Source of the DNA: a virus
Strand: one strand, 5' to 3'
IMG/VR virus record: IMGVR_UViG_3300009285_014802
Coordinates: 1-25,147 of that record
Length of the DNA stretch: 25,147 nt
Each line of letters begins with the position of its first letter. The first letter of the stretch is position 1. The notes below the pieces were generated by a model, which saw only the letters and a list, made by a program, of their open reading frames with translations, was not told the DNA's origin and ran no database searches. The position numbers were made by a program, and so were the translations under genes. Positions 244 through 17,866 of the stretch are shown piece by piece.

Positions 244-1263
244 TTATAATCCCGTCGTTAATTCCATCTGAAAAGGCTCTCCAATGACTTTCAACACTGG
301 TGCTTCCAAAATAAAGCTAACATAAGAGAATGATGTCGATGGGACATCAACTCTTGACATTGGAATAAGTTCATCGACTTCTATCCAATTCTCTCCCGCT
401 GGCGATTTCTCCGTTAAGAGAAGTGCACCAAATCCTACAAACCTTGACGGTTTAACATCAAAAATTGACTGAGTTACAGGATTTACCAGTCTTGCCAAAG
501 CAAAACCGCCTGTTACTCCAGACACTTCCTGCTGTTGGATAATCCTTTGCTGGATTGTTCCAGAACTCGAAAGGTCATCAGCCAAAGCCTGAAGTTGCAG
601 TGCAGATGCTATAAGGATTGTTGGGTCTCCCCCTCTGGAAAAAAGTGTTCGACAGTTTGCACCAATTCCTGATGCGGTCAAATATCCAGTGTAATTACCA
701 GAATTGGTAGTTATCTGTTTATTTAATCCGTCAAACTCCAAAGAAGAGTTCGCAGTATCTCCTGCGATAAACAACTCTTCCTCACCCAGCATTACCTCAT
801 ACATCTTGACTCTTTCACGGTCTGTCTGCATATCAGGCTGACCGTCTCGGGCTTTTGATGCTGCTAATGCCAGTCCTCCGACTTCAAGCTTCCTACCTAA
901 AAGTTTGTAGGGTGCCGAAGCCAAAGAATAGGTCTGAGAAGTTTCGTTGGGTGCTCCCGCATCGGCAAAAGCTATTTGTGTAGCCGTGCCTGCCGGAACA
1001 TTACCTGTCGGATGCATCCTTGAATGAATCGCAGATGTCATCCTCTTCCACTCCGCCATTTGTCCTTTTCCTTTAACCCTTGGAAATCTATTTCTCAAAG
1101 GAGTATCTATAGGAACGAGAAACTTGATTTTCTCATCCAGATTCTCAGGAGAGAATATAGACCTTGTGGTCGGGGAAAAAGTATAAGTAGAAGTCGTTTC
1201 CGCCGCCTTCATTAACTGATCTTTAATTTGCTGTAAAGCTTCATCTATTACATTACTTGCCAT
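244..1263 (-). CDS. Phage major capsid protein (HK97 fold)
   Basis: This 339-residue protein is most likely the shell subunit of the phage head. It has a helical N-terminal arm (residues 1-25), a region around residues 50-120 rich in conserved-looking Gly/Pro (LVPIDTPLRNRFPRVKGKGQ), a central GEEELFIAGD...FDGLNKQI segment (about 157-184), which in capsid proteins of this type precedes the A-domain, and a beta-rich C-terminus. Length fits non-cleaved or lightly processed HK97-like capsids. It lies directly downstream of the scaffold gene and follows the protease gene, the standard head order. ATG is preceded by GGGGGTGAG with an ATAAATT spacer. Family assignment rests on residue pattern and context, not on an alignment. 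Confidence 0.85.
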   Translation of the reverse strand: MASNVIDEALQQIKDQLMKAAETTSTYTFSPTTRSIFSPENLDEKIKFLVPIDTPLRNRFPRVKGKGQMAEWKRMTSAIHSRMHPTGNVPAGTATQIAFADAGAPNETSQTYSLASAPYKLLGRKLEVGGLALAASKARDGQPDMQTDRERVKMYEVMLGEEELFIAGDTANSSLEFDGLNKQITTNSGNYTGYLTASGIGANCRTLFSRGGDPTILIASALQLQALADDLSSSGTIQQRIIQQQEVSGVTGGFALARLVNPVTQSIFDVKPSRFVGFGALLLTEKSPAGENWIEVDELIPMSRVDVPSTSFSYVSFILEAPVLKVIGEPFQMELTTGL

Positions 1264-2755: not shown

Positions 2756-2772
2756 TACAATACCTAATAGGG

Positions 2773-2801: not shown

Positions 2802-2831
2802 TAGGCAAAATATAATTAATAGGGAGTGAGC

Positions 2832-2861: not shown

Positions 2862-2868
2862 TTTAGAA

Positions 2869-2994: not shown

Positions 2995-3055
2995 TATCAA
3001 AAGAAAAAAGACCAGATAAGAAAAGGAAAAATTAAATCAGGTCAAATATATAAAT

Positions 3056-3403: not shown

Positions 3404-3413
3404 AATTTATCAC

Positions 3414-4259
3414 CTAGCCTAAAACTTTCTTCAAGTCCTCAAAATATCCTGGTGTCCAAGTAGTATTAACATATAGCTTAATATCTTTCTTTTTGTTATC
3501 ATTATCTTTTAAATCTTTAATAGTTGTAAACTTGTTTAATTCTTCAAAATCAATTCCATAAAGAATTTTATCAAATGTTTTTTTATCCTCACCGCTTAAG
3601 ACTTTAACTGCTAATTTCTTCAAGGCAGTCAAAGCAGTTGATAATTCAATGGTTGATCGACCTTCAGACTGAAATATGTTTAGCATCATTCTTATGTCTC
3701 TTGCCAGATCAAGAAGATGACCGGCATCCTGTACCGAGTAATTCTGATTGTGGGGCGGTTTTGGCATCATCATATCCACCCCCTGCTTGTCAATTACTTT
3801 TCCCTTATCGTCAATTTTTACCATTGCAAATACAGCATCGGGATTAGCAGGTCTGTCAACCAGAGAAATCTCAGAAAGTTTTAAATCTTTAATTCTGTTT
3901 CCCACTTGTTTTATTATTTTACCACCAATAGAGAATCCTGCATAGACCCCTTCTTTTACTTTTTCCCATGCATCCTTATCAACCACTTTTCCTTCAATCC
4001 AGAGTCCTTTGTCATCTACTTTTGCCTTCATTGTTTTGCCAACAGCTGACATTTGGTGCATCTCTCTCAAGCCCCCCAGTTTATAGCGGTTTTTCTCTTG
4101 GTCAAATTCTCCTAAATATCCAGGTAATGCTCTTTCTATTGCATCTTTTTCTACTATTTCCCCCTGTGAATCCAGAGCCTCGGAAGAGGCATAGCCACTT
4201 ACAGTTTTCTTTTCTTCGTCTTTCTTTGTAAATTCTATAAAACGTCTAAAATCATTCAT
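3414..4259 (-). CDS. Prohead protease, XkdF-like
   Basis: This 281-residue protein matches the phage prohead maturation serine protease pattern: an N-terminal beta domain (VSGYASSEALDSQGEIVEKD, about 20-40), a conserved His in LREMHQMSAVGKT (His68), and LKLSEISLVDRPANPDAVF (127-144) carrying the likely nucleophile Ser132. It would cut scaffold and capsid during head maturation. Residues about 150-281 form a Lys-rich, helical extension not needed for catalysis, possibly a scaffold-like targeting tail. ATG is preceded by AGGAT and follows the stop of the Ser/Thr-rich gene by two bases, so it is cotranscribed from the promoter near 5300. The family call is firm; exact catalytic assignment is from pattern memory. 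Confidence 0.82.
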   Translation of the reverse strand: MNDFRRFIEFTKKDEEKKTVSGYASSEALDSQGEIVEKDAIERALPGYLGEFDQEKNRYKLGGLREMHQMSAVGKTMKAKVDDKGLWIEGKVVDKDAWEKVKEGVYAGFSIGGKIIKQVGNRIKDLKLSEISLVDRPANPDAVFAMVKIDDKGKVIDKQGVDMMMPKPPHNQNYSVQDAGHLLDLARDIRMMLNIFQSEGRSTIELSTALTALKKLAVKVLSGEDKKTFDKILYGIDFEELNKFTTIKDLKDNDNKKKDIKLYVNTTWTPGYFEDLKKVLG

Positions 4260-4261
4260 AT

Positions 4262-5194
4262 TTATCCTAAAGTTGTACTAGTTGATGTACTGGTTGTCGT
4301 GCTGGTACTTGTTGTTGTTGATTGAGATGTTGATGTACTCGTGCTTTGGGTTGTAGATGTTGACTGAGTAGTTGAGCTGCTGGTAGTAGTTGAACTTGTG
4401 GAAGTTGATTTTGTAGTAGAAGTTGATTGAGTCGTAGAACTACTTGTTGTTGTACTACTGGTTGATGTAGAAGTACTTTGTGTCGTACTGGTAGATTGAC
4501 TTGTTGTTGTACTGCTTGTAGAAGTTGATGTAGAAGTACTTTGTGTCGTACTGGTAGATTGAGTAGTAGAAGTACTCTGTGTTGTAGAGCTACTTGTAGT
4601 TGTAGACGAAGTTGATGTAGATTGAGATGTTGAACTTGAAGTAGTCGTACTGCTAGTTGATGTAGAAATAGAAGTACTGGTTGATTGGGAAGTTGAGGTG
4701 CTGGTTGTTACAGTAGTAGAAGTACTGCTTGAAGTAGTAGTGCTTGAAGTAGTGGTTGAGGTTGAAGTTGTAGTAGTCTCCCCAGAAAGTCCATAGACTA
4801 TTCTCATTCCATATTGTATTCCAGCACCGCCGGCACAAGTTACGTTTATTTCATCTCCCTGTCCAAACCATAAGTCCTGAGCAGGAATAAAAAGAAAGCC
4901 TGTGTCACCTGCAGATAAAGTTTGTGTTTCAAGTGTTACATTATATTGACTTCCAAGTCTTGAAACAAGAGTAACAGTTACGGGTTGAGTTGGAGTTGAG
5001 GCAAATTTAACAGAAATATGATTAAGCCTGAAGGAGCCATCTATATTAGTGGTATAATTAATATTACCTGTTCCTGTTTGGTCATCTTCCTTAAAATCAG
5101 GACCTGCTTCAACACGCTGTTTTCCTCCTCTGGTAACAGTTGCGGTTCTTCCTAATCCTGTATATTCTTCCTGAAATTGATAGTTAACTGCCAC
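4262..5194 (-). CDS. Beta-domain protein with Ser/Thr mucin-like tail
   Basis: 310 residues starting at GTG (5192-5194) with AAAGGA 8 bases upstream. Residues 1-140 form a beta-rich domain with no family I recognise (MAVNYQFQEEYTGLGRTATV...GAGIQYGMRIVYGLSGE), probably a virion or head-decoration module. Residues 141-309 are almost only Ser and Thr with a Gln or Lys about every 6-17 positions. It has no signal peptide or membrane segment. It is the first gene after a promoter-hairpin leader and is followed directly by the prohead protease, which suggests a head-associated protein. The tail is like those of the two next larger genes and could be O-glycosylated by the enzymes further upstream; that is inference. 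Confidence 0.65.
   Translation of the reverse strand: MAVNYQFQEEYTGLGRTATVTRGGKQRVEAGPDFKEDDQTGTGNINYTTNIDGSFRLNHISVKFASTPTQPVTVTLVSRLGSQYNVTLETQTLSAGDTGFLFIPAQDLWFGQGDEINVTCAGGAGIQYGMRIVYGLSGETTTTSTSTTTSSTTTSSSTSTTVTTSTSTSQSTSTSISTSTSSTTTSSSTSQSTSTSSTTTSSSTTQSTSTTQSTSTTQSTSTSTSTSSTTTSQSTSTTQSTSTSTSSTTTSSSTTQSTSTTKSTSTSSTTTSSSTTQSTSTTQSTSTSTSQSTTTSTSTTTSTSTSTTLG
4268..4774 (-). repeat. Ser/Thr-coding degenerate repeat tract (310-residue protein)
   Basis: Imperfect tandem units encoding variants of SSTTTSSSTSTTQSTST. DNA copies differ at many synonymous positions while the protein pattern holds. Confidence 0.85.
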
Positions 5195-5222
5195 TAATTT
5201 ATTCCTTTCATATCACAAAAAA

Positions 5223-5246
5223 ACCACCCAGCTTTCGCTAGATGGT
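5223..5246 (-). terminator. Leader hairpin with GAAA loop and U-run before the 310-residue gene
   Basis: In minus-strand RNA ACCAUCUAGC (5246-5237) pairs with GCUGGGUGGU (5232-5223), a 10-bp stem with two G-U pairs and a GAAA tetraloop, followed by about six U (5222-5217). It is an intrinsic terminator by form, but lies only about 20 bases after the predicted transcription start. A mini reading frame Met-Asn-Tyr-Thr-Ile-stop ends inside its 5' arm. Confidence 0.75.
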
Positions 5247-5273
5247 ATAGTTCATTAACTTACCCTACTGTAG

Positions 5274-5302
5274 ATAGTATAACAATAATATAGTTCTGTC
5301 AA
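5274..5302 (-). promoter_or_regulatory. Sigma70-like promoter for the 310-residue gene and protease
   Basis: TTGACA (5297-5302, perfect) and TACTAT (5274-5279) are 17 bases apart on the minus strand. The predicted start is near 5267, just upstream of the hairpin at 5223-5246. Confidence 0.65.
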
Positions 5303-5316
5303 GCCCCAAAATAGCC

Positions 5317-8142
5317 TCAAGGATCAACTATCCATGCCCTATCTTTATAAACACTTGTACCAATTCTGTTTTTAATTAACATTGATGCAAGAGTTGTTGT
5401 AGTTGTAGAAGTTGAAGAAGACGTTGATTTAGAAATAGTTGTTGATGAACTTGTTGTGGTTGAACTAGTACTTGTGCTGGAACTTGTTGAAATAGTAGTA
5501 CTGCTTGAGGTTGTCGTACTACTAGTCGAAGTAGTTAAGGATTGAGTTGTGGTTAAAGAAGTACTCGTTGATTGTGTAGTACTCGTCGAACTACTGGTAG
5601 TTGTACTTGATGTACTAGTTGATTGAGTAGTAGAGGTTGACTGAGTAGTAGAAGTGCTTTGAGTTGTACTCGTACTAGAAGAAGTTGTTGTAGATGATGT
5701 AGAAGTCGAGGTTGAGCTTGTTGTACTGGTTGATTGGGTTGTACTTGTACTCGTAGATTTAGTAGTAGAACTGCTGGTTGTGGTAGAAGAAGTTGAAGTC
5801 GACTGAGATATCGAAATACTAGTAGAAGTACTTTTAGTTGTAGAAATGCTCGAAGAAGTAGTCGTAGAAGAAGTACTGGTTGATTGAGTTGTACTAGATG
5901 AAATTGATGTTGAACTAGTAGTAGAAGTACTGCTTGAAGTTGTTGTTGAGGATATACTGATACTTTGAGTTGTAGAAGAACTTGTCGATTGAGTTGTTGT
6001 TGTTGAGCTACTCGTGGTCGTACTGCTAGTTGAAGTACTTGTGCTGAGCGTAGTCGATGTACTCGATGTAGTCGAAGTAGAACTACTTACAGTTGTGGAA
6101 GTACTCGTACTGAGTGAAGTTGATGTAGTCAACGAAGTTGAAGTAGATTTAGTTGTCGTTGTTGAAGAAGATGTCGTAGTTGAAGATGTACTTGTGCTGA
6201 GCGAAGTCGAGGTACTCAATGAAGTCGAAGTACTTATGGATTGAGTGGTAGAAGTACTGGAACTCGTTGTCGTAGAACTAGTACTGGTAGTAATAGAAAA
6301 TGTGGTTGAAGTAGAAGTGGAACTCGTAGTACTTATACTTGATGAAGTAGTTGTAGAGGAAGTGGATGTACTTGATGAAGTTGTAGTTGAAGTGCTTGTG
6401 CTGAGCGAAGTTGACAAAGTCAACGAAGTCGAAGTAGACTGTGTTGTTGAAGTAGATGAACTTGTAGTTGTAGAGCTAGTACTAGTAGACTGAGTTGTAC
6501 TGGTACTCGTTGATTGGGTAGTACTACTTGATGTGGTTGTACTACTAGTACTGGTTGATTGAGTAGTTGATGTTGATTGAGTTATACTTGTGCTAGATGA
6601 AGTAGTAGTACTTGAAATTGAAGTAGATGTTGATTGGGTGGTACTCGTAGACTGAGTAGTAGAGGTACTGCTACTCGTAGTAGTAGAACTGGTTGAAGTA
6701 CTTTTAGTTGTAGAACTACTCGTTGATTGAGTGCTACTGGTTGAACTCGAGGTGGTGGTCGAGCTTGTAGAGGTACTTTGAGTAATTGAGGTACTTGTAG
6801 ACTTGGTGGTACTCGTACTAGAGCTAGTAGTTGTGCTGGACGTACTCGTTGATTTTGTTGTGGAAGTAGATTGAGTAGTAGAAGTAGAAGAACTCGTTGT
6901 GGTTGAGGACGTACTTGTTGATTGAGTAGTACTGCTTGATGTCGACTTAGTAGTAGAAGTTGAACTGCTGGTTGTGGTAGAAGAAGTTGAAGTAGAGCTT
7001 GAAGTAGATGTTGTAGCTACTGCCATAGGTTGATGATCTACAAGAAGCCAGAGGGTAGAAATTCTAACATCATCAAAATTTCCAGTAATTCTTGCTCCTA
7101 TTTGTGCAGTATCCAAATCAGCCTTTGTCCAAGCCGTTGTGGAAACACCAGGAAGATCATATAAGGTAAGAGAATAATTTCTAGGAGCAGATGGTTTATT
7201 GGTAAAATAGGTTTCAGAACTATCCGCTATAGAACTTGATTCTTCTACTGTTCCCCCTGAAGATGATTTTATTCTTAGAACAAATGTGCAACTACCCTGT
7301 TCAGAAAATCTAACTCCGACCTGAACAACATTTATAGTATCGTCTGAAGCCAATCCTGCAGGAGTTGCATCTATATTGTAATCGTTTGTTCCATCACTCC
7401 CATCGTTAAAAATAGTTGTTGTTGCATCATCAGGAGTTACTTCATCTACCGCAGTATATGCTCCTGTATCAGCATTATCTCCTGCCGCATTGGGTCTCAA
7501 ATGAATTATTTCTCCCTTCCCTGGATAAGAGTTTTGGAAAGAACCATTTGAGTCATTAATTGCTATATCGTCAAAAAACCAATCTCCTGTAGTTTGAGCT
7601 TCTGTTCTTATATTCCCCCCGAAAGCCATAGAGTGAATTGTTGCGGCTAAAGTAAGATTGGCGGCTCCTGCAAATTCAACCCCATCAATTAATGCTCTTA
7701 ATTCTTCACTTCCATCAGCAGGAGCTTTATCAAACTTAACCTCAACCCTATACCAGGTGTCTGCAGATAGAGCTGAACTATCACTTCCTATTTGGGTTGC
7801 TCCGTTAAAAAGCTGTAATGCTCCGCCACTCGTAAGCAATATGGCAACACCTGCTGCCTCCGCTACTGCGGTATCGTCATCAACTGAAAATATAGTATTA
7901 GTGGCAGAAGGTAGAGTGGCATACCTAAAGTAGAAACGGATAAAATAAGGGCCATTCCCTGCTGCTGAAGCAAATTGATAGAGAAATCCCCTAGCTGTTC
8001 CAGAAGCAAGAGAGCTTATACGTCCTGCATATGTTCCACTTCGTATTGTAGTTGTTGAAATTGTTCCGTTTGTTACAGTTGTAAATTCAACCCCTGCAGT
8101 TGTGGAATTTAATTCAAATCCTGTACTAAATAATCTTGCCAT
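5317..8142 (-). CDS. Giant LamG-like appendage protein with mucin-like Ser/Thr tract
   Basis: 941 residues. Residues about 1-200 look like a concanavalin/LamG jelly roll (FSTGFELNSTTAGVEF... YFIRFYFRYA...WYRVEVKFDKAPADGSEELRALIDG...WFFDDIAINDSNG). Residues about 205-372 are a second beta domain (GEIIHLRPNAAGDNADTGAY...STLWLLVDHQPM). Residues about 375-915 are Ser/Thr only, apart from single Gln, Lys, Leu or Ile spacers. The last 25 residues (ASMLIKNRIGTSVYKDRAWIVDP) resemble the C-terminus of the neighbouring 918-residue protein (Y.DKA.I.DP). LamG-like folds bind sugars or proteins, so an adhesive or receptor-binding virion fibre is plausible. The first two domains are paralogous to the 10916-12109 product. 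The start lacks an SD and is 7 bases after the previous stop. Confidence 0.7.
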   Translation of the reverse strand: MARLFSTGFELNSTTAGVEFTTVTNGTISTTTIRSGTYAGRISSLASGTARGFLYQFASAAGNGPYFIRFYFRYATLPSATNTIFSVDDDTAVAEAAGVAILLTSGGALQLFNGATQIGSDSSALSADTWYRVEVKFDKAPADGSEELRALIDGVEFAGAANLTLAATIHSMAFGGNIRTEAQTTGDWFFDDIAINDSNGSFQNSYPGKGEIIHLRPNAAGDNADTGAYTAVDEVTPDDATTTIFNDGSDGTNDYNIDATPAGLASDDTINVVQVGVRFSEQGSCTFVLRIKSSSGGTVEESSSIADSSETYFTNKPSAPRNYSLTLYDLPGVSTTAWTKADLDTAQIGARITGNFDDVRISTLWLLVDHQPMAVATTSTSSSTSTSSTTTSSSTSTTKSTSSSTTQSTSTSSTTTSSSTSTTQSTSTTKSTSTSSTTTSSSTSTTKSTSTSITQSTSTSSTTTSSSTSSTQSTSSSTTKSTSTSSTTTSSSTSTTQSTSTTQSTSTSISSTTTSSSTSITQSTSTTQSTSTSSTTTSSSTTQSTSTSTTQSTSTSSTTTSSSTSTTQSTSTSLTLSTSLSTSTSTTTSSSTSTSSTTTSSSISTTSSTSTSTTFSITTSTSSTTTSSSTSTTQSISTSTSLSTSTSLSTSTSSTTTSSSTTTTKSTSTSLTTSTSLSTSTSTTVSSSTSTTSSTSTTLSTSTSTSSTTTSSSTTTTQSTSSSTTQSISISSTTTSSSTSTTSSTSISSSTTQSTSTSSTTTSSSISTTKSTSTSISISQSTSTSSTTTSSSTTKSTSTSTTQSTSTTSSTSTSTSSTTTSSSTSTTQSTSTTQSTSTTQSTSTSSTTTSSSTSTTQSTSTSLTTTQSLTTSTSSTTTSSSTTISTSSSTSTSSTTTSSSTTISKSTSSSTSTTTTTLASMLIKNRIGTSVYKDRAWIVDP
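5392..7014 (-). repeat. Ser/Thr-coding degenerate repeat tract (941-residue protein)
   Basis: About 540 codons of the 17-residue pattern (Q/K)STSTSSTTTSSSTSTT with shortened and lengthened copies. Ser positions use both AGY and TCN codons. Several copies that encode Leu (for example 6038-6057 and 6191-6210) match the dispersed CTTG...TGAGCG.AGTCGA repeat found elsewhere in the window. Confidence 0.85.
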
Positions 8143-8149
8143 AATTTAT

Positions 8150-10906
8150 TTAGGGATCTGATATCCCCGCTTTATCAGTATACTTTTTATTTTGTGCTTG
8201 GTGTGGTGTTTGTTCCGAAAAGGGTTTTGCTTTTGCTTGATGTGGTGTTTGTTGCGTAAATGGCTTAGTTTTTTCAGTTATGATACCAGTCTGGCTGTGG
8301 TATAGTCTTGCCTGAGTTCCATGCGGAGATTGGGGTGTAATCAAAGTCGCCTTTCTGGTTTGGAATAAGATTGGCGGCAGGGTAGTAGATGTTGATGTAG
8401 AGGTTGACATAGTTGTCGTAGTGCTGCTTGACGTGGTAGTCGAGGAAGTTGATGTAGAAGTCGAAGTAGATGTAGATAAAGTAGTAGAACTCGATGAACT
8501 TGTAGTTGTACTTGAGGTAGATGAGCTAGTTGTTGTCGAAGTACTCGTAGAAATTGTAGTCGAGGTTGAACTCGTTGTCGAGCTTGATATAGAAGTTGTA
8601 GTAGAACTGGTTGAGGTCGATTTTGATGTACTTGTTGAGCTGCTCGTAGTAGTAGAAGATGTAGAAGTAGACCGAGATGAACTTGTAGTTGTAGAGCTAG
8701 TACTGGTAGAGGTTGACCTCGTAGTTGTTGTAGAAGTAGATTTGGTTGTTGAAGTTGAAATTGTCAAACTAGTAGAACTTGAAGTCGTTGTGGAAGATGT
8801 ACTGGTACTTTGAGTTGTACTCGTTGACGATGAGGTTGTTGTACTGCTTGTACTTGTTGATTTCGTTGTAGAGGTTGAAGAACTAGTCGTAGTACTACTT
8901 GTAGAAGTACTTTGTGTCGTACTTGTAGAAGAAGAAGTTGTTGTCGATGAAGTACTCGTACTTTGTGTTGTTGATGTTGAACTAGAAGTAATCGTCGAGG
9001 AAGTGGAAGTCGAAATTGAAGTTGAAGAACTAGTCGAAATTGTTGTCGAGGTGGAACTACTCGTGGTTGTAGAAGAAGTTGAAGTACTTGTGCTAAGCGA
9101 AGTCGACGTACTAGTACTTTGAGTAGTTGAGGTAGAAGAACTTGTAGTCGTAGAACTTGTAGACGTTGATTGAGTAGTACTTGTGCTACTGCTAGTTGTT
9201 GTTGAGGAAGTAGAAGTTGTTGTTGAGCTGGATGTACTCGTAGATTGAGTTGTACTTGTTGATGAACTAGTTGTAGTAGAGCTGGTACTGGTACTTATAG
9301 AGGATGATGTTGAAGTGGATCGGGTTGTTGTGGTTGATGAAGAAGTGGTGGTAGATGAAGTAGAAGTAGAAATAGTTGTCGATGTAGAACTAGATGTAGT
9401 AGTGCTACTTGTGCTAGTAGATTGAGTCGTAGAACTACTAGAAGATGTTGAAGTGCTTTTAGTTGTACTAGTGCTGGAACTTGTAGTGGTACTGCTAGTA
9501 GACGTGCTTGTTGTGGTTGAGCTTGTAGTTGAACTGGATGTAGTAGTCGAACTTGTACTTGTAGACTGGGTAGTAGTTGTTGAAGTTGTTGGAGCTAATG
9601 TAGTAGTTGTAGAAGTACTAATTGTAGTACTGGTTGAAGATGATGTTGTTGTGGAACTTGTACTCGTTGATCGTGTTGTGCTTGTACTAGTTGACTGAGT
9701 AGTACTAGTGCTACTAGAAGTAGTAGTTGAACTCGTGGATGTTGTGGTGCTACTGGATGTCGTTGTAGAAATAGTCGTGGTTGTGCTACTGGATGTCGTA
9801 GTACTGCTTGTAGAAGTACTGGAACTTGTAGTGGTAGAACTTGTAGAAGTAGATTGTGTTGTTGAGGTTGATGTTGACTGAGTGGTAGATGTACTGGAAG
9901 AAGTTGTTGTACTACTTGTAGAAGTAGACTGCGTAGTTGAAGTCGTAGTCGATTGAGTAGTACTTGTAGAGCTACTAGTGGTAGTTGAACTCGTAGACGT
10001 ACTTATAGAAGTTGAAGTACTAGTAGTCTGAGTGGTACTGGTACTTGAAGATGTGGTTGTAGAACTAGTTGATGTGGATATAGTTGAGCTCGTGGAGGTA
10101 CTTTTGGTTGTTGAGGTTGATGAGCTAGTCGTAGTGGAACTTGTCGAAGTAGAAATTGTAGTACTAGTCGAGGTACTTTTGGTTGTTGAGGTAGAAGAGG
10201 AAGTAGTCGTAGAACTTGTTGAGGTACTGATAGATGTACTCGTTGATGTTGACTGAGTGGTTGAAGTAGAGCTACTTGTTGTAGTTGAGGATGTGCTTGT
10301 CGTAATGCTGGTAGTTGTAGAAGTGGTTAAAGTAGTACTAGTGCTAGATGATGTGGTTGTACTAGAGGTTGAAGTACTAATAGTAGAACTCGTAGAAATT
10401 GTCCGGGTTGTACTCGTAGATGATGAAGTGGTTGTAGATGATGTACTGGTTGATTGAGTAGTTGTGGTAGAAGTAGATTTTGTTGTACTGGTTGAAGATG
10501 AAGTAGTTGTACTACTAGTTGATGTGGAACTACTTATAGTAGTAGAAGTAGATTTTGTAGTACTGGTGGAGGAAGAAGTAGTAGTTGAACTAGTGCTGGT
10601 AGAGCTACTAATAGTTGTACTTGTAGATTTTGTGGTTGAAGTACTACTACTAGTGGTAGTTGAAGAAGTACTGGTAGTTAAGGAAGTTGATGTACTTATT
10701 GATTGAGTTGTACTTGTTGAAGAAGAAGTGGTTGTAGAAGTGCTAGTGGAAGTACTGGTAGTAGATGTACTAGTAGTCGAAGTCGTGGATGTAGAGGACG
10801 AAGTACTAGTTGAACTGGTAGAAGTACTGGTAGTAGTAGCTTCAGGTAAAGGTACTGTTACCCGAATTATGTATATCTTGCCGTAACTTCGCCATATTCT
10901 TGCCAT
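8150..10906 (-). CDS. Giant mucin-like Ser/Thr-repeat protein
   Basis: 918 residues with almost no folded domain. The N-terminus (MARIWRSYGKIYIIRVTVPL, about 22 residues) is a short hydrophobic/basic beta-like stretch, perhaps an anchor to the virion. Residues about 23-850 are a Ser/Thr tract with the 17-residue repeat and Gln, Lys, Arg, Ile or Leu spacers. The last 65 residues contain short repeats around TPHQA (SPHGTQARLY, KPFTQQTPHQAKA, KPFSEQTPHQAQN) and end KYTDKAGISDP. It lies between two LamG-domain genes with stops and starts nearly touching, so all three are one operon. A long, stiff, O-glycosylated stalk or fibre is the simplest idea, but no activity can be read from the sequence. 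The start has no clear SD. Confidence 0.65.
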   Translation of the reverse strand: MARIWRSYGKIYIIRVTVPLPEATTTSTSTSSTSTSSSTSTTSTTSTSTTSTSTSTSTTTSSSTSTTQSISTSTSLTTSTSSTTTSSSTSTTKSTSTTISSSTSTSSTTTSSSTSTTKSTSTTISSSTSTSSTTTSSSTSTTKSTSTTTTQSTSTSSTTTSSSTSTTRTISTSSTISTSTSSTTTSSSTSTTLTTSTTTSITTSTSSTTTSSSTSTTQSTSTSTSISTSTSSTTTSSSTSTTKSTSTSTTISTSTSSTTTSSSTSTTKSTSTSSTISTSTSSTTTSSSTSTTQTTSTSTSISTSTSSTTTSSSTSTTQSTTTSTTQSTSTSSTTTSSSTSTTQSTSTSTTQSTSTSSTTTSSSTSTSSTTTSSSTTTTISTTTSSSTTTSTSSTTTSSSTSTTQSTSTSTTRSTSTSSTTTSSSTSTTISTSTTTTLAPTTSTTTTQSTSTSSTTTSSSTTSSTTTSTSTSSTTTSSSTSTTKSTSTSSSSSTTQSTSTSSTTTSSSTSTTISTSTSSTTTSSSTTTTRSTSTSSSISTSTSSTTTSSSTSTTQSTSTSSSTTTSTSSTTTSSSTSTTQSTSTSSTTTSSSTSTTQSTSTSTSLSTSTSTSSTTTSSSTSTTISTSSSTSISTSTSSTITSSSTSTTQSTSTSSTTTSSSTSTTQSTSTSSTTTSSSTSTTKSTSTSSTTTSSSTSTTQSTSTSSTTTSSSTSLTISTSTTKSTSTTTTRSTSTSTSSTTTSSSRSTSTSSTTTSSSTSTSKSTSTSSTTTSISSSTTSSTSTTISTSTSTTTSSSTSSTTTSSSSSTTLSTSTSTSTSTSSTTTSSSTTTTMSTSTSTSTTLPPILFQTRKATLITPQSPHGTQARLYHSQTGIITEKTKPFTQQTPHQAKAKPFSEQTPHQAQNKKYTDKAGISDP
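8385..10838 (-). repeat. Ser/Thr-coding degenerate repeat tract (918-residue protein)
   Basis: About 820 codons built from a 51-base unit encoding STSTSSTTTSSSTSTT plus a Q/K/R/I spacer. Units are conserved as protein and scrambled at synonymous sites. Confidence 0.87.
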
Positions 10907-10915
10907 ATATCATAC

Positions 10916-12109
10916 TTAATAAGTATTGCTTCTATTAACCGCCTGATTCAACTGGACAATCCTCTGCCTATGTGGTTCATCATCATACACGATAGCCGCC
11001 AAAATAGTTGAACAGCGTGTTACCACGCCAGATGTCCCCAAAATTCTGGTAAAACCCACATTAGCCTCATCGGCGGTTGTCGGAGTCCAGGGAATATTAA
11101 GTGTCGGCCTGAGTATGGAGAAAGAACCTGTCCATGTAAATCCAGTGCTAAAGACTTGTGCCCCCCAGTCACGGGCTATCAAACTAGCAGTCCCGTCAGG
11201 GTGGCGTATCTTGACACGGGGAGTTCCAGGGGTACCAGGATCAACATAAGCGTGATAAGCCCAGCAACCAATAGCCTGTAGATAAGAATCTGCTGGCAGG
11301 TTTGCAGAAGGTTTGGTAAATAACTGATTGCCTGATGTAGTCTTACAGACATAGCTGGTTGCATCATCAGGTGGCAATCCTTCGTCAACTTCGGTGTATT
11401 TATCGGTAGGCGTAGCATCACTACAATCGGCTGATTTCCCCCATGTACCATCGCTTGACAAGGTAGTGTCACCAGTCGGTAAAATAAAAGCGACAAATCT
11501 GCAAGCACCTAATTTTTTTGTGAAAGTATAGTAAAAGTTATCAAAGTCAGCTTGGAAACTATTATTATAACCTTGTAATTTGCCTATTCGGGCAAGAGTG
11601 CTTGTAGGATTAAAGAAACCAGCAGCTTCGGTATCCACTGAAAGGGTTAATTCTTCTTTTCTATCAATCCACAAAGACGCTGTTAATTTGCTGTAAGAGG
11701 CTACTCCCGAAGTATCGTTCTTCCACGCCCTTATTTCAATTAAATAAGTATTGTTTATAGAAAGAACGGTTGAACCTAAATCGCTGGTATTCGCTGCAAT
11801 ATCAAGATGAAGTTTGCCATTAGGGTTTTGGACTATTCGGAGAAACAGACCATTAAACTCAAAAATCTGCATGGTGGTTGTTACTGGCAAGCCGCTTGGT
11901 TTATAATGAAACCCCGCATATTCGTTGGGATTATCCAGGCTGGTTTGGTTTATACGAATAACCCCACTATCACTAAGATTACCAGCCCCAGCCCTAAAGC
12001 CGTAAGCCCCGTTAATTGCCGCTGCGGCTGGGAAGGAAAAGTCCGTACCTTCCGTGGTAGACCACTCAGTAGCATCGCCAAATTCAAATCCAGAAAAGAA
12101 ATTAGCCAT
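10916..12109 (-). CDS. LamG-like two-domain virion protein (no Ser/Thr tail)
   Basis: 397 residues. Residues 1-200 look like a LamG/concanavalin jelly roll (MANFFSGFEFGDATEW...YAGFHYKPSGLP...YLIEIRAWKNDTSG...LWIDRKEELTL...DFDNFYYTF). Residues about 205-397 form a second beta domain, with YTEVDEGLPPDDATSYV aligning with YTAVDEVTPDDATTTIF of the 941-residue protein, so the two genes share both domains. Here the mucin tail is absent, making this the compact paralogue. Its ATG overlaps the end of the 109-residue gene by 8 bases and is preceded by GAGGT. A tail or head appendage that binds host surface sugars is plausible; this is inference from fold type. Confidence 0.68.
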   Translation of the reverse strand: MANFFSGFEFGDATEWSTTEGTDFSFPAAAAINGAYGFRAGAGNLSDSGVIRINQTSLDNPNEYAGFHYKPSGLPVTTTMQIFEFNGLFLRIVQNPNGKLHLDIAANTSDLGSTVLSINNTYLIEIRAWKNDTSGVASYSKLTASLWIDRKEELTLSVDTEAAGFFNPTSTLARIGKLQGYNNSFQADFDNFYYTFTKKLGACRFVAFILPTGDTTLSSDGTWGKSADCSDATPTDKYTEVDEGLPPDDATSYVCKTTSGNQLFTKPSANLPADSYLQAIGCWAYHAYVDPGTPGTPRVKIRHPDGTASLIARDWGAQVFSTGFTWTGSFSILRPTLNIPWTPTTADEANVGFTRILGTSGVVTRCSTILAAIVYDDEPHRQRIVQLNQAVNRSNTY

Positions 12110-12431: not shown

Positions 12432-12432
12432 G

Positions 12433-13224: not shown

Positions 13225-14199
13225 TTATCTTGGATCCTCCACGAAGAAACCTTCCTGTTTAAGTTTTCTTTTATTCCCAAAAGGCTTATCTGGTTCATCT
13301 CTAGGTGGGAATATCGGTGAATTAGCTCCATCTGGACTAAATTCAAATAATGCATCACAATTTTGGAAAGAAGGTTTAGTATAGGGAACAATTTCTGCTG
13401 TAGTATTAGATCTTTTCTTACTAGCCATCCATTCGTGCCATACGAAGGAACGCATGGTAGCTGAAGCCCGCCCTCCCGCTAAATAAATTCTATGGCAGAG
13501 TTGATAATCTTCCGCTCCTGCGGGACCAAACCTTTCATCATATAACCCCACATTTTCCCAGAAATCTCTCTTGCCCACCACAAACCAGCCCGCAAATCCT
13601 TCAATATGTCCTTGGCGGTGGGCAAGTAACATATCGTAGCCTTTCTTGGTTTGAGCTATTTCCAAAGTAATAGGGCTACCATCTGGAGCTTTAGGGTATA
13701 TATTATTGCCAATTTGTATTCCCCATGGTGGGCACGAATTTCCAGGTATCCAATGACCATCATCAGCTAAACCATAACCAAAACCAGGTTCAATTGGCGA
13801 AGCTGGATTAACAGCCTTCATTTCGGGAAAAGCATCGAACTGGTCTAAGATTCCCTGCCACCAACGATCTGAAATCATCAAAATATCATCATTGCAAGCA
13901 GCTACATATTTAGAACCCCAGTACAATCCGTGAATAATTCCTTCATTCATACTCTTTGCAAATCCCATGTTTTTCCTTTTAGGATTTCTAATAATCAAGT
14001 CGGCATAATCATGTACAAGTCCATAGACTCCATCTTTAGTTTGATCTACTACAATTACCCTGAAATTAACAGGAGTATATTTATATAAAGATTCCAAAGC
14101 TGGCCTAATAAAATTAGTTAAAACTGGATTAAACACGAATGTTACTTCTATATTACTATTAGTCAACCTCCTTGCCCTGAGCGTAGTCGAAGGGTTCAT
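13225..14199 (-). CDS. GT-A family 2-like glycosyltransferase
   Basis: 324 residues from the ATG at 14197-14199. That start has GGAGG 8 bases upstream and an ATGA overlap with the previous gene; an in-frame ATG 15 bases earlier lies in the SD itself and is less likely. Motifs: IEVTFVFNP strand at 17-24, VVDQTKDG (50-57), metal-binding NDD (103-105), and a C-terminal acceptor-side motif FAGWFVVGKRDFWENVGLYD ... AEDYQLCHR with catalytic-type Glu-Asp, then SFVWHEW. It transfers an unknown sugar from a nucleotide donor. The first residues (MNPSTTLRAR) are encoded by a dispersed repeat, so the native N-terminus was changed. Being next to the mucin-like genes, it is a candidate modifier of them. 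Confidence 0.78.
   Translation of the reverse strand: MNPSTTLRARRLTNSNIEVTFVFNPVLTNFIRPALESLYKYTPVNFRVIVVDQTKDGVYGLVHDYADLIIRNPKRKNMGFAKSMNEGIIHGLYWGSKYVAACNDDILMISDRWWQGILDQFDAFPEMKAVNPASPIEPGFGYGLADDGHWIPGNSCPPWGIQIGNNIYPKAPDGSPITLEIAQTKKGYDMLLAHRQGHIEGFAGWFVVGKRDFWENVGLYDERFGPAGAEDYQLCHRIYLAGGRASATMRSFVWHEWMASKKRSNTTAEIVPYTKPSFQNCDALFEFSPDGANSPIFPPRDEPDKPFGNKRKLKQEGFFVEDPR
14171..14194. repeat. Dispersed short repeat, copy 1
   Basis: CTTGCCCTGAGCGTAGTCGA plus AGGG. It encodes PSTTLRAR at the start of the glycosyltransferase. Related copies are at 15606-15627 and 21591-21609. Confidence 0.7.
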
Positions 14200-14486
14200 C
14201 TTACCCACCTCCATAAATTATTCCACAATTTTTCCAAAAATGATGTTTTTGGAAATGGGTACATAGGATATTCAGGAATAAATGATGTCGTAGTTGTACT
14301 TCCCCATTTAGATTTTATCCTGCTAACACTTTTAATTGGATTGGTCGTTCCCAATTTAGATTTAGTCCTTACAGGTTTAATACCTTTATATATTTTAGGT
14401 AATTCTTTTTCAAAATCTTTTAATGCTTTAGATTTAATCCTAATAATTCTTTTCTTATTTTTTATATTTTCTTTTTTATTCTTCAT
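14196..14486 (-). CDS. Small very basic protein, unknown function
   Basis: 96 residues, strongly Lys/Arg-rich (MKNKKENIKNKKRIIRIKSK...), with a duplicated segment (RTKSKLGTTNPIK and RIKSKWGSTTTTS) and an aromatic C-terminus (FLEKLWNNLWRWVR). No family recognised. It starts 7 bases after the aminotransferase stop and ends in an ATGA overlap with the glycosyltransferase, so it is translated as part of that operon. The basic character suggests nucleic acid or membrane surface contact, but this is only a guess. Confidence 0.5.
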   Translation of the reverse strand: MKNKKENIKNKKRIIRIKSKALKDFEKELPKIYKGIKPVRTKSKLGTTNPIKSVSRIKSKWGSTTTTSFIPEYPMYPFPKTSFLEKLWNNLWRWVR

Positions 14487-14493: not shown

Positions 14494-15636
14494 TCACCAC
14501 CCCGATTTTATCACAGAGCAAATTTCAGCAACTTGCTCTTCTGTTACATAATGATGCATTGGTAATACTAAATATTTATGTTCTAAAGCATCCATATTGG
14601 GACAGTTATAAACTCTTCCACCATAAACTTTATATCTATCAGCCCGATAATGAACTGGATTTGACTCAATGTTATTTTCCAAAAGTTTTTTCTTCAAAGC
14701 CTCTCTGCTTTCAGTTTCAACTGTACAAAGCCAATAACTAGACTCAATATTATCTGGCACATCTTTATTGATTAATCTAATTCCTGGTATTCCTTCCAGT
14801 CCCTTTTTATATGCCTCGAATCTTTTCTTTGCCCCTTCAATTAAGTCATCAAGCTCATTAAGCCCTTCAATTCCCATTGCGGCCTCAATACTTGTCATTT
14901 GATACTTGAAACCTACTTCCCAAATATCCTGCTTCCATCTGTCTTCAAACTTAGCTTTTCTGTCAATTCCAAACCATCTAATTCTCTTAGCTTGTTCTTC
15001 CTGCATCGGATCTTCTATTGTCAGCATCCCACCATCTCCAGTAGTTATGGTTTTCACCGCCTGAAAACTGAAAGCAGTATATTGGCAAATCTCACCAACA
15101 CGTTTCCCTTTGTAAGTTGCCCCGATTGCCTGAGCCGCATCTTCAATAATCGGTACATTCCATTTCTTAGCGATTGGCAAAAGTCTATCATAATTACAAG
15201 GCATACCCGCATAATCCACGGCAATAATTGCCTTAATTCTTTCTCCCTGCTGTTTAAATAGCTCCTCTACATGATTAGGATCAATATTCATTGTATCTTT
15301 TTCAATATCAGCAAAAACCATCTTTGCCCCCTGATATAAGATTCCCGAATACGAGGCTGAACAGGTAAAAACAGATCCAATAACCTCTTCCCCCTCTTTT
15401 ATCCCAGCTAGAATATATGCCAGATGAAGTGCCGATGTGCCAGAATTAACTGCAATTGCCCGATGTTTACCAGAAATGCGGTTCTCAAATTTTTTCTCAA
15501 ATTCTTCTACAAGAGGTCCTTCACCTATCCATCTATTATCCATTTGTAGTCTTGCCCGATTTTTAGCAGATTCAGATAAATAAGGATGAAACAAAACTAT
15601 TTTATCTTGTCCTGAGCTTGTCGAAGGATTATCCAT
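14494..15636 (-). CDS. DegT/DnrJ/EryC1/StrS-family sugar aminotransferase
   Basis: 380 residues, full length for the family. It is a PLP enzyme that converts a keto-sugar nucleotide into an amino sugar. Visible motifs: GPLVEEFEKKF (40-50), VNSGTSALHLA (63-73), IEDAAQAIGATYKGKRVG (164-181, Asp166 contacting the PLP ring), and FSFQAVKTITTGDGGML (189-205) with Lys195 as the Schiff-base lysine. ATG at 15634-15636 has AAGGAGA six bases upstream and overlaps the preceding gene by 8 bases. Residues 4-10 (PSTSSGQ) come from the dispersed repeat at 15606-15627, inserted right after the start. With the neighbouring epimerase and acetyltransferase it could make an N-acetylated aminodeoxy sugar; the exact sugar cannot be read. 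Confidence 0.85.
   Translation of the reverse strand: MDNPSTSSGQDKIVLFHPYLSESAKNRARLQMDNRWIGEGPLVEEFEKKFENRISGKHRAIAVNSGTSALHLAYILAGIKEGEEVIGSVFTCSASYSGILYQGAKMVFADIEKDTMNIDPNHVEELFKQQGERIKAIIAVDYAGMPCNYDRLLPIAKKWNVPIIEDAAQAIGATYKGKRVGEICQYTAFSFQAVKTITTGDGGMLTIEDPMQEEQAKRIRWFGIDRKAKFEDRWKQDIWEVGFKYQMTSIEAAMGIEGLNELDDLIEGAKKRFEAYKKGLEGIPGIRLINKDVPDNIESSYWLCTVETESREALKKKLLENNIESNPVHYRADRYKVYGGRVYNCPNMDALEHKYLVLPMHHYVTEEQVAEICSVIKSGW
15606..15627. repeat. Dispersed short repeat, copy 2
   Basis: CTTGTCCTGAGCTTGTCGAA plus GG. It lies inside the first ten codons of the aminotransferase (PSTSSGQ). Its first nine bases are also found at 16476-16484. Confidence 0.7.
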
Positions 15637-16468
15637 AAATTATCTCCTTAAATTCTGTTTCACAGAGTATCGTCTGGTATTCTGCTTTGGGGAAATTGGC
15701 CTTGTTTTCTGGGGTTACTATAAATTGTTCTCCAGAAGGTACAAATCCTTCTTCAAAGTCTCCGTATGGCACTCCGCTTTTAACAAAAGAAAACATATTG
15801 TTCCAATTTGTTATTATAACACCCATAATAGAAAAAAGCAAGGTAGTAACCACATCTTCCTTATCCATTTGCCCCTCATTTATCTGGATTACCAAAGGAT
15901 AAATGCTTTGCCAGGCGTAAGTTTGAGATGCCATAAAAAACGCTCCTAGAAAAGGTGCTCCTATGGTTGGATTTTCATCTTGGGAAAATTCCAAATTATC
16001 ATAAACAGTCTGAAAACAAGGATAATGAAATAATATCCTATCTAATACTTTCTTGCTTATTCCTCCCGATATATTAAAAGCCCCGATTATTGTCGGCTTA
16101 CTTGAAGAATTAAAAATATCAACCAAAGTTTCCGCCCAGTCGTTTCTTATAAAAAAGGTATCATTATGCATCCGTACGCATAGCCTCGTCTTTATGTCCA
16201 TAAATCCCGCTTCCTGTTTATAAGTGCTTTGGGCATACTGTATCGCTTTTCCTTTAATATTGTGTTTTAAGAGAAGATTGTAAGTTTCCATATCCCCCTT
16301 GTCATAAACCACCAAAGTATTTTTAACCACTTCAGGCGGTGTCATCTTGATATATTGGGGAATAAACCACTTAATTCTCTTCACATATTGAGAAGCTTGA
16401 GGTATTACCACAGACAAATCCCCCAGAGTGTAGGGTAAAAATTGTCCAACTGGTATTATTTTATTCAT
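15629..16468 (-). CDS. Divergent glycosyltransferase-like protein
   Basis: 279 residues. The layout suggests a GT-A domain: an early strand-helix region, NTLVVYDKGDMETYNLLLKH (about 50-69), and VRMHNDTFFIRNDWAETLVD (about 98-117), where HND takes the place of the DxD metal site; then GAFNISGG, GAPFLGAFFMAS, and an acidic NEGQMDKEDVVTT segment (about 197-209) in the position of the ED acceptor motif. Similarity to GT2 is weak, so donor and acceptor are unknown. It overlaps both neighbours by 8 bases, which places it in the aminotransferase-acetyltransferase-epimerase operon, and the pathway context supports a sugar-transfer role. Confidence 0.6.
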   Translation of the reverse strand: MNKIIPVGQFLPYTLGDLSVVIPQASQYVKRIKWFIPQYIKMTPPEVVKNTLVVYDKGDMETYNLLLKHNIKGKAIQYAQSTYKQEAGFMDIKTRLCVRMHNDTFFIRNDWAETLVDIFNSSSKPTIIGAFNISGGISKKVLDRILFHYPCFQTVYDNLEFSQDENPTIGAPFLGAFFMASQTYAWQSIYPLVIQINEGQMDKEDVVTTLLFSIMGVIITNWNNMFSFVKSGVPYGDFEEGFVPSGEQFIVTPENKANFPKAEYQTILCETEFKEIIYG

Positions 16469-17066
16469 TTGTTACTTGTCCTGTCTGCCCGCCTTTGGAG
16501 GGAGCAAAGTCAAAGGATTCTTTCTCCAATAAACTCATCATAATATAGCTATGATACTTTCCATCTCTGTAAAGAGCCTGTCGTTGCTTTCCTTCAACCT
16601 TAAATCCAAACTTATCATAAAGTTTTTTTGCTACTTTATTGCCTTCTGCCACCAAGAACCAGATACGATTCATCCCCTGTTGTTTAAACAAATAATCTAT
16701 AAATGCCCCAAAAGCCTCACTTGCAAATCCCTTTCCCCTATATTTTGGCACAATATCAATTCCAATCCTTACAGACCTATTTATTCTATCCCATTCATCA
16801 GAACGCAGCATTCCAACAAATCGGGGGGCAATAAACTCAGCTAATTTTGGGTTGATATTTTTATTCTCCGGTTTATATTCAATTGCCAAATACATTTGTG
16901 ATTTATCCAATTGAAGTTTTTTAAACCACTCTTTCTGAGCTTCCTCACTAATAGGTGTAATATCAGTCAACCAATGAGAAGTTGTCGGATCATTTCTCAT
17001 CTTCCTCAAATCCTCCAAGTGTCTTTCTTCAAGAAGTACAATTTTCAATCGTTTAGTTTCAATCAT
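16461..17066 (-). CDS. GNAT-family N-acetyltransferase (RimJ/RimL-like)
   Basis: 201 residues. It starts IETKRLKIVLLEERHLEDL, has the strand VRIGIDIVPK, the acetyl-CoA loop YRGKGFASEAF (109-119), and the C-terminal VAEGNKVAKKLYDKFGFKVEG (139-159), all typical of RimJ/RimL-type GNATs, including those that N-acetylate amino sugar nucleotides (PseH and WecD-like). ATGA overlap with the epimerase gene and an 8-base overlap with the next gene put it in one operon. The last residues (FAPSKGGQTGQVTNE) look like an appended repeat-derived tail encoded by 16476-16503. An amino sugar as substrate is inference from its neighbours. Confidence 0.78.
   Translation of the reverse strand: MIETKRLKIVLLEERHLEDLRKMRNDPTTSHWLTDITPISEEAQKEWFKKLQLDKSQMYLAIEYKPENKNINPKLAEFIAPRFVGMLRSDEWDRINRSVRIGIDIVPKYRGKGFASEAFGAFIDYLFKQQGMNRIWFLVAEGNKVAKKLYDKFGFKVEGKQRQALYRDGKYHSYIMMSLLEKESFDFAPSKGGQTGQVTNE
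16476..16503. repeat. Possible second type of dispersed repeat at the acetyltransferase C-terminus
   Basis: The GC-rich stretch encodes PSKGGQTGQ and differs in composition from the AT-rich gene around it. I recall similar PSKGGQAG-type insertions in metagenomic proteins. Only one copy is in the window. Confidence 0.35.
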
Positions 17067-17866
17067 AAAAGATCCCTTAATCCTTCTCTTAAATCAATAC
17101 CAGGCTTAAAAGACAAATGCCTTGCTTTAGTCAAATCGGCTTTCGAGTACCTGACTTCTTTTCTAGGGTCATCATAAATAATTCTTGGTTGCTTCTGCAT
17201 CAACTCTCCTATAATAACAGCTAATCTGTTAACACTGGTAGTCTTACCAGTTCCTATATCTATTACGCTTCCTGATGTTATTTTTTTCTCTACGGCAAGT
17301 TTTATGGCTCTTGCTACATCTCTAGCGTGGATAAAATCCCTTGTCTGTTTTCCGTCTCCATGGATAATAATCCTACCTCTTTTAGTTCCTTTAATAAAGT
17401 TATCAATAACCCTTCCATAAACAGGATTAGAACCCTTCCCATAAATATTAAAAAATCTAAGAGAGACTGTGTCGATTTCATCTTTAAAACAATCCAAAAT
17501 CAACTCAGGTACATATTTAGTTAAGGCATAAATCGAAGAAGTCGGTTGGGAGGAAGCCGAAGAAGAAGCATAAATAATTTTCCCAACTCCAGCCTTTATT
17601 GCAGCCCCTACAACGCACATTGTTCCCTCAATATTATTCTTTTTATATATCTGGGGCTGTTTTTCAGAATCCGCCACAGATACATAGGCCGCCAGATGAA
17701 TAATAGTATCTGTTTTATTCTTTTTAAGAATACGAAAAAGATGCTGTTTATTTAAAATATTATCTTTATTTGAGTTTTTTACATCATAACCTATCGCATC
17801 AGGAAATAGCTCCATTACATAAGAACCGACAAAACCAGAAGATCCCGTCACCAAGATTTTATTCAC
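17063..17866 (-). CDS. NAD-dependent sugar epimerase/dehydratase (extended SDR)
   Basis: 267 residues from GTG at 17864-17866, which has AGGAGG 6 bases upstream and a GTGA overlap with the previous stop; an ATG 27 bases earlier would place the SD inside the gene. The Rossmann motif TGSSGFVG is at 7-14, HLAAYVSVADS at 57-67, and the catalytic YALTK (Tyr113, Lys117) follows the SSSASS serines. The substrate domain has LRFFNIYGKGSNP and GDGKQTRDFIHARDVARAI, the usual nucleotide-sugar epimerase pattern. It is a little short compared with the roughly 310-residue norm. It likely supplies the keto or epimerised sugar for the aminotransferase of the same operon. The precise reaction cannot be told. 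Confidence 0.82.
   Translation of the reverse strand: MNKILVTGSSGFVGSYVMELFPDAIGYDVKNSNKDNILNKQHLFRILKKNKTDTIIHLAAYVSVADSEKQPQIYKKNNIEGTMCVVGAAIKAGVGKIIYASSSASSQPTSSIYALTKYVPELILDCFKDEIDTVSLRFFNIYGKGSNPVYGRVIDNFIKGTKRGRIIIHGDGKQTRDFIHARDVARAIKLAVEKKITSGSVIDIGTGKTTSVNRLAVIIGELMQKQPRIIYDDPRKEVRYSKADLTKARHLSFKPGIDLREGLRDLL

Follow-up and report, generated by a model that had tools for sequence, protein, structure and literature searches.

Long Ser/Thr tails paired with glycosyltransferase islands: a probable virion-surface system of uncultured tailed phages

The stretch of DNA analysed here (the window) comprises the 25,147 nucleotides of IMG/VR virus record IMGVR_UViG_3300009285_014802 and encodes three proteins with very long tracts made up almost only of Ser and Thr, in the same genome segment as a set of glycosyltransferases (GTs) and sugar-modifying enzymes. 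Dozens of other uncultured viruses were found to pair Ser/Thr tails with sugar-attaching enzymes, and it is probable that these phages build and wear their own sugar coat. The best explanation, and one that we hold to be likely, is that the tracts are phage-encoded acceptor tails on structural proteins, O-glycosylated in the cytoplasm and coating the particle. Acceptor tails and a linked glycosylation island would together form a widespread virion-surface system of uncultured tailed phages, undescribed in the open literature searched; the pairing lies beside the capsid genes in one whole clade and is also found on further backbones.

Ser/Thr tracts

Three open reading frames (ORFs), all on the minus strand (4262-5194, 5317-8142 and 8150-10906), carry tracts of 169, 541 and 819 residues that are 90-93% Ser plus Thr (Ser 42-45%, Thr 44-50%), the remainder being chiefly Q, I, K and L. 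A sequence-only reading made beforehand had described three such tracts, a 17-residue pattern within them and a third protein that is nearly all tract, and each of these observations was borne out. The pattern STSTSSTTTSSSTSTT(Q/K/R) is confirmed: autocorrelation along the residues has maxima at lags 25, 17, 6 and 8, the Q, I, K or L breaks have preferred spacings of 6, 8, 17 and 25, and order-4 entropy is much lower than in shuffled sequences (z -18.7, -18.0 and -7.0 for the three tracts). The longest tract takes up 819 of the 918 aa of ORF 8150-10906, which begins with an N-terminus (MARIW..) similar to the start of the LamG-like paralogs described below, ends in a basic, Gln-rich tail of ~76 aa and has no family match in Pfam or PHROGs. 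A tract-anchored search for relatives of this protein gave 517 pattern hits, among which only the same virus was confirmed, and is uninformative, presumably because low-complexity filtering hides the tract. The window tract proteins have no stretch of 19 residues that is strongly hydrophobic, the maximum being 9 to 12 hydrophobic residues.

The core STSTSSTTTSSST occurs in 42 copies with 42 distinct DNA sequences. Codon identity among the copies is 0.257, against 0.22 (Ser) and 0.32 (Thr) expected from tract codon usage, and the AGY/TCN mismatch at Ser is 0.47 versus 0.48 expected by chance. With no two copies alike in DNA, and codon identity close to what independent choice would give, the Ser/Thr order is conserved at the level of the protein and not of the DNA. 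Five pairs of duplicate 25-codon units differ by single-base codon changes of which 43 are synonymous and 4 nonsynonymous, a per-site ratio between the two classes of ~0.04 from few pairs (n=5). A DNA microsatellite or assembly repeat was ruled out, both by the 42 differing copies and by an independent contig of the same virus (IMG/VR contig 3300025015_000021, 93,901 bases, hereafter G001), whose start and end are 100% identical to window positions 12349-25147 and 1-12330, with 18 bases between the two in the window. G001 thus maps an almost complete circle, and the window belongs to a circularly permuted genome of ~93.9 kb.

Further long tracts have a strongly non-random residue order (z about -13 or lower, except L135 at z -2.7), and their codon identity is for the most part close to the chance value. 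Tracts of 1389 and ~977 residues in two other phages (L259:8539-12777 and L263:9725-12730) are among the longest seen and extend beyond the end of their loci or close to it. Order of this kind, together with the mainly synonymous differences between near-duplicate units, would also suit a tract that folds into a defined structure, such as a silk-like fibre or a repetitive beta assembly, with separate packing roles for Ser and Thr and any glycosylation being secondary. This is considered very unlikely. AlphaFold gave predicted local distance difference test (pLDDT) values of 23-31 over most of the 169-aa tract (weak evidence, as no alignment was used), the idioms of the tracts are unlike from virus to virus, which a fixed fold does not favour, and the linkage of tracts to GTs would go unexplained.

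Linkage of tracts and enzymes

The linkage was examined with a GT4-type enzyme conserved among tract phages and with the major capsid protein of the main clade in which it occurs. A scan of IMG/VR with a GT4 alignment, in which tracts were not used as query, gave 130 relatives of which 80 were fetched, and the capsid scan gave 165 of which 80 were also fetched; 25 loci served as comparison (13 LamG relatives, 10 INPHARED relatives of the clade capsid protein, Galactica and lambda). The window's own capsid protein was unusable as a baseline because its scan gave two loci only. Tracts were sought within 10 kb of GT4 with a score cut-off of at least 20, which was the analysts' choice. Such a tract was present at 64 of the 80 GT4 loci, whereas none of the 25 comparison loci had a tract or GT4, their best tract score being 9 (Fisher 1e-13, relatedness ignored). 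A caveat is that the loci are interrelated and many are fragmentary, while the comparison loci are few and non-random. Clustering at 90% GT4 identity left 43 clusters that carry the clade capsid protein, 42 of them tract-positive, and 23 others, 10 of them tract-positive; several of the tract-negative clusters outside the clade were short contigs. G001 itself was scored negative because its tracts lie >20 kb from GT4, and the full contig (G079) of another negative locus (L236) has tracts with scores of 375 and 63 farther off.

In the main capsid clade small ORFs, mostly of 90-160 codons, directly follow the major capsid gene, carry a motif like GDEYYNTTxNxWMRYDGxxWxG and end in a Ser/Thr tail, with GT4 1-5 kb after the capsid gene. 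All 33 GT4-positive loci with at least 5 kb downstream of the capsid gene were tract-positive, and among the 103 distinct small tract ORFs of all fetched clade loci, 101 had the tract at the extreme C-terminus. In the relatives of this capsid protein from INPHARED (Alcaligenes, Roseobacter, Pelagibacter, Planktothrix and Caulobacter phages and others from Manatee Spring) the capsid gene was followed by a cement-type or hypothetical gene, and no tract was present. Two clade members without GT4 (G090 and G091) have tails of a second type, (SPSx)n, ~0.6-0.7 kb after the capsid gene, on an anchor homologous to a domain that bears a Ser/Thr tail in the GT4-positive L206 (E=3e-15). Tail type set against GT4 presence gave 49:0 and 1:2 (p 0.002, small numbers), the 49 including two GT4-positive loci whose Ser/Thr tails are short (scores 13 and 19) and the exception, L329, being a contig truncated 6 kb downstream. 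Within one capsid clade tail type (Ser/Thr or SPSx) switches with the presence of GT4.

A scan for the core as a DNA pattern returned many trivial Thr-rich matches, but also three phages with long tracts (G015, G017 and G021) in which, as in the window, the GT cluster ends beside large tract-bearing genes. The last GT of the cluster is of the same family in all four tract phages and adjoins the tract gene or lies a few genes before it. In the pattern-scan set at least three GT2 hits were found in 3 of 7 records with a tract score of at least 50 and in 0 of 43 without (p 0.003; p 0.08-0.34 at two lower cut-offs). As this association is significant only at the highest of three cut-offs, the argument is carried by the GT4- and capsid-anchored tests. 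The tie between tract proteins and neighbouring GTs that the sequence-only reading had proposed is thus supported, by the 64 GT4 loci and by the change of tract type where GT4 is missing. It had also named, as an observation that would count against the tie, the same tracts being common in genomes with no GTs nearby; among the longest tracts they were not, and every record with at least three GT2 hits was a long-tract one.

Anchor domains and exchangeable tails

Two of the tracts had been said to follow folded beta domains. For ORF 5317-8142 this stands with moderate confidence: its N-terminal domain belongs to PHROG 14065 by sequence and is predicted to be a concanavalin A (ConA)/LamG-like jelly roll (mean pLDDT 67), which by fold resembles ConA-like lectin domains and the LamG proteins of phages. 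It has 34% identity over 99% to gp11 of Streptomyces phage Galactica, a 'minor tail protein' whose gene lies a few genes downstream of the major capsid protein gene there. A function drawn from fold matches of the domain to sialidases and other lectin-like domains was considered and dropped, as the matches reflect the common jelly roll. The N-terminal domain of ORF 4262-5194 is predicted to be beta-rich only at low confidence; database searches found it no relatives outside this virus, and it has no detectable kinship to the small capsid-neighbour beta domain.

In three IMG/VR relatives the LamG domain is followed by an (SPSx)n tract (L005, L006 and L009), whereas the place of the Ser-rich tail is taken by a repeat ITKSLKYTV in L004 and by a regular repeat VGQASETDLAQAI / VGQASETDLAQAITVLK in L011-L014, and L008, L010 and L015 have no repeat behind the domain. 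The tail on the LamG-like anchor domain is exchangeable. The (SPSx)n type, with Ser at every other position, was seen in L005, L006, L009, G090 (L356:12107-12820), G091 (L357:9343-9951) and several ORFs of G007. G090, G091 and the LamG-(SPSx)n phages G003, G004 and G007 have GT2 hits and no GT4-type hits; the two tail types share their anchor domains, and the (SPSx)n type, in records that have GT2 and lack GT4, is possibly a parallel pairing of acceptor and enzyme.

The variety of repeats at this site would also suit unmodified tracts that are simply extended polar spacers or bristles, the GT island acting elsewhere, e.g. on host surface glycans, and the neighbourhood being a cargo region of late genes. 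A fourth tract protein of this virus (G001 69555-73460, 1301 aa), in which a LamG-like domain, a 209-aa Ser/Thr tract and domains matching tail-fibre and virion structural PHROGs follow one another, does have a tract that links folded domains, and some long Thr-rich tracts are in records with few or no GT2 hits. Such a spacer is nevertheless judged unlikely. The change between Ser/Thr and SPSx tails goes along with GT4 presence inside one capsid clade, nearly all of the small tract proteins end in the tract so that nothing is linked there, and Ser and Thr are not swapped in the tracts even though single base changes would suffice.

Glycosyltransferases and sugar enzymes

Over its whole genome G001 has 11 GT2 hits, 2 GT4-type hits and 1 further GT-B-like enzyme, together with a DegT aminotransferase, a GNAT acetyltransferase, epimerases, a UDP-glucose-dehydrogenase-like protein, a PIG-L deacetylase-like protein and several methyltransferases, the sugar and GT genes being interleaved with structural genes. 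Five GTs had been counted in the window; these were right in kind (Table 1), but only two pass the Pfam cut-off. Among the phage GTs PF00535 and PF00534 matches above cut-off were found. Three enzymes are common to G001, G015, G017 and G021: GT4 (G001 24163-25467), one GT2 (G001 20360-22486) and a second GT2, GT2z, which lies in the window. GT2z orthologs hold the same end of the cluster in the three other phages, retain NDD and GGED-type motifs in all four and have a profile that matches chondroitin synthase in PDB (E=3e-8), as an active inverting GT-A enzyme would be expected to. In G001 the other conserved GT2 (L022:1360-3486, minus strand) contains an intein that includes a homing endonuclease of the LAGLIDADG type (PF14890, PF14528), and its homologs in the other three phages are short and uninterrupted. 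A protein of the reversibly-glycosylated-polypeptide/UDP-arabinopyranose-mutase family (G001 35312-36187, L022:16312-17187; PF03214 E=8e-33) has a homolog in G007.

GT4 is the best candidate for the enzyme that would prime the first sugar, because all four phages have it and it opens the cluster in G015, G017 and G021, and by analogy with the priming of serine-rich repeat proteins by GtfA/GtfB (PMC6973325). Its profile searched against all PDB sequences found only 6kih (Tll1590, E=0.007) and no GtfA chain at E<=0.1, and no NCBIfam family was above cut-off. GT4 is absent from 50,697 phage records and no cultured phage in the collection has it, hence the system appears to be confined to uncultured phages so far. 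Homologs in two proteobacterial metagenome-assembled genome (MAG) contigs, L270 (Luminiphilus) and L272, are in ORFs of ~577 and ~692 codons with extra N-terminal sequence. As these stand in cellular-looking gene surroundings with no Ser/Thr tracts, GT4 occurs outside the phage tract setting too. Among bacterial contigs a GT4 relative and a tract occurred together only in those from Deltaproteobacteria/Desulfobacteraceae MAGs, at only 27-28% identity.

Some viruses encode GTs that glycosylate DNA (Pyle 2024, cited in a passage of PMC12619734), and the island could in principle act on hypermodified bases of the phage DNA, the Ser/Thr proteins being unrelated neighbours. DNA glycosylation is disfavoured as the purpose of the island and is given very little weight: a thymidylate-synthase-family (base hydroxymethylase) gene was absent from six island genomes in a search whose control was positive in 9 genomes, the amino-sugar, methyl-sugar and epimerase genes are typical of surface glycans, and the linkage to tail type would be left unexplained. 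No match to TET/JBP was found, but the controls gave no match either and this search is uninformative.

Proposed mechanism

The explanation favoured here is that the tract proteins would be made in the infected cell as acceptor tails of phage structural proteins, their Ser and Thr receiving O-linked sugars from the phage's own GT island in the host cytoplasm before or during assembly. The glycosylated tails would then be built into the particle as long sugar-bearing bristles, or a brush, around head and tail. The LamG-like domain of ORF 5317-8142 and the beta domain of ORF 4262-5194 would fix the tail to the particle, and in the fourth protein the tract would be a spacer between the LamG-like and the tail-fibre/virion domains. 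Priming and extension of the glycan would fall to the three conserved enzymes, GT4 and two GT2, and the variable remainder of the island (aminotransferase, acetyltransferase, epimerases, methyltransferases and deacetylase) would make and decorate unusual sugars. At an assumed 2.5 angstrom per residue, a value based on mucins, extended tracts of 169, 541 and 819 residues would span ~42, 135 and 205 nm. The coat may serve in shielding, hydration, adhesion or receptor mimicry.

A number of observations count against such a coat. The system is known here from metagenomic sequence alone, the conserved Ser/Thr order exceeds what a generic mucin acceptor needs, and the GT island could serve another acceptor. 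One GT4-positive genome (G072) is tract-free over 36.9 kb, which looks genuine, another (G078) has no tract in 39.6 of 84.6 kb, and no tract was seen in a syntenic close relative of this virus (G067), whose contig stops within the GT cluster. In the pattern-scan set the other four of the seven records with scores of at least 50 have one or no GT2 hit; long Thr-rich tracts with so few GT2 hits are found in G016, G019 and G020, and some shorter Thr-rich tracts are in records with no GT2 hits.

It is also possible, if on balance somewhat doubtful, that tails and enzymes form an exchangeable surface-glycan cassette comparable to a serotype locus of phages. GT4-led islands would travel with Ser/Thr tails and GT2-only islands with (SPSx)n tails, each pair being swapped as a unit between unrelated capsids. 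The conserved Ser/Thr order would then act as a template for Ser- and Thr-specific transferases, giving each virus its own glycan pattern.

If acceptor tails are indeed glycosylated by the island, many environmental phages are self-coated with sugar, which would have a bearing on adsorption, persistence and interaction with the host surface, and the cassette would be a source of bacterial O-glycosylation enzymes for a simple Ser/Thr template. With a strict Ser/Thr order and scrambled codons, what reads Ser against Thr becomes directly testable.

Genome context

The tailed-phage genes of G001 include those for terminase, portal, head morphogenesis, tape measure, a Dit-like protein and endolysin, and in the window the tract genes stand among head and sugar genes (Table 1). 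Between the protease and capsid genes (1391-2629) is a gene for a 412-aa protein with a middle part very rich in Glu, Ala and Val, a scaffold-like position. A 2H-phosphoesterase-like protein elsewhere in the genome (G001 33169-33789, L022:14169-14789) has a weak match, below cut-off, to the anti-CBASS protein Acb1 (E=0.002).

Table 1. Features of the window, with the evidence for each
Feature	Position	Strand	Basis
Major capsid protein, SU10 type	244..1263	(-)	PF17236 E=1e-8
Prohead protease, next gene downstream of tract genes	3414..4259	(-)	PF04586/PF14550; PHROG head maturation protease
Ser/Thr tract, 169 aa (aa 140-308 of ORF 4262-5194)	4271..4777	(-)	composition, 92% Ser+Thr
Predicted N-terminal beta-rich domain of ORF 4262-5194	4778..5194	(-)	structure prediction
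Ser/Thr tract, 541 aa (aa 377-917 of ORF 5317-8142)	5392..7014	(-)	composition 90% Ser+Thr, codon scrambling, order vs shuffles
Predicted LamG/concanavalin-like N-terminal domain, 376 aa, of ORF 5317-8142	7015..8142	(-)	PHROG 14065 E=2e-56; fold matches
918-aa virion-type protein, almost wholly tract	8150..10906	(-)	ORF reading
Ser/Thr tract, 819 aa (aa 24-842 of ORF 8150-10906)	8381..10837	(-)	composition 93% Ser+Thr, codon scrambling, order vs shuffles
Tract-free paralog, weak LamG-family match, upstream neighbour of tract genes	10916..12109	(-)	hmmsearch E=8.6e-5; PHROG 2448 E=4e-6
GT2-family glycosyltransferase (GT2z), end of GT cluster adjoining tract genes	13225..14214	(-)	PF00535 E=2.9e-6
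DegT/DnrJ/EryC1 sugar aminotransferase	14494..15636	(-)	PF01041 E=1e-89
Putative glycosyltransferase (weak)	15629..16468	(-)	PF13712 E=0.002, below cut-off
GNAT N-acetyltransferase	16461..17066	(-)	PF13302 E=1e-18
NAD-dependent nucleotide-sugar epimerase/dehydratase	17063..17893	(-)	PF01370 E=5e-36
GT2-like glycosyltransferase, homolog in tract phage G021	18168..18845	(-)	PF00535 E=3e-4
GT2-like glycosyltransferase	21659..22339	(-)	PF00535 E=3e-4
Methyltransferase of island	22336..22932	(-)	PF08241 E=1e-10
C-methyltransferase, nucleotide-sugar type	22934..24097	(-)	PF08421/PF08484
GT2 glycosyltransferase	24039..24974	(-)	PF00535 E=7e-12

Comparison with known systems

No description of phages with Ser/Thr tails was found in the open-access literature, the scope of the search, which left subscription journals and preprints outside. 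Among eukaryotic giant viruses, chloroviruses and mimiviruses encode their own glycosylation machinery for particle proteins; no Ser/Thr tail design is known from their capsid glycosylation. The Streptomyces phages Galactica and Hiyaa (PHROG 14065) have the same N-terminal LamG-like domain, but the C-terminal part of their proteins is another repeat with no Ser/Thr tract, and Galactica has no GT2.

In mycobacteriophages capsid and tail-tube subunits are glycosylated at their C-termini (Freeman 2023, as cited in a passage of PMC12619734), and a passage of PMC11256854 implicates phage-encoded GTs in this virion glycosylation. Phage-encoded GTs with catalytic motifs are present here as well, whereas the Ser/Thr tails, dedicated and up to hundreds of residues long, the separate tail-bearing proteins and the large GT and sugar-modification island are different. 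As virion glycosylation of tailed phages is known from mycobacteriophages, the kind of system is known and its form is new.

The tracts had been called 'mucin-like', a term that fits only in part: Ser and Thr cannot stand in for each other here and keep a conserved order. A closer parallel is offered by the bacterial serine-rich repeat proteins (SRRPs) GspB, Fap1 and PsrP with their GtfA/GtfB and accessory Sec clusters, in which long Ser-rich repeats are combined with folded domains and O-glycosylated at Ser/Thr inside the cell by variable sets of GTs encoded adjacently (PMC6973325). The phage proteins likewise have a long Ser-rich repeat region and a variable GT set encoded beside it. They differ in that the phage GT4 has no detectable relation to GtfA, by sequence profile only, as a GT-B fold may still be common to both; no accessory Sec genes were seen, and the G001 ORFs covered by family searches gave no candidate for SecA2/SecY2 export, a signal peptide or an LPXTG anchor, although no search was aimed at Sec. 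The phage carrier is a structural-type protein, and its tract consists of Ser plus Thr in fixed order, whereas Ser alternates with A, V or T in SRRPs. The phage system is not a member of the SRRP family, but by analogy it would work in the same way, and SRRPs are its closest working parallel.

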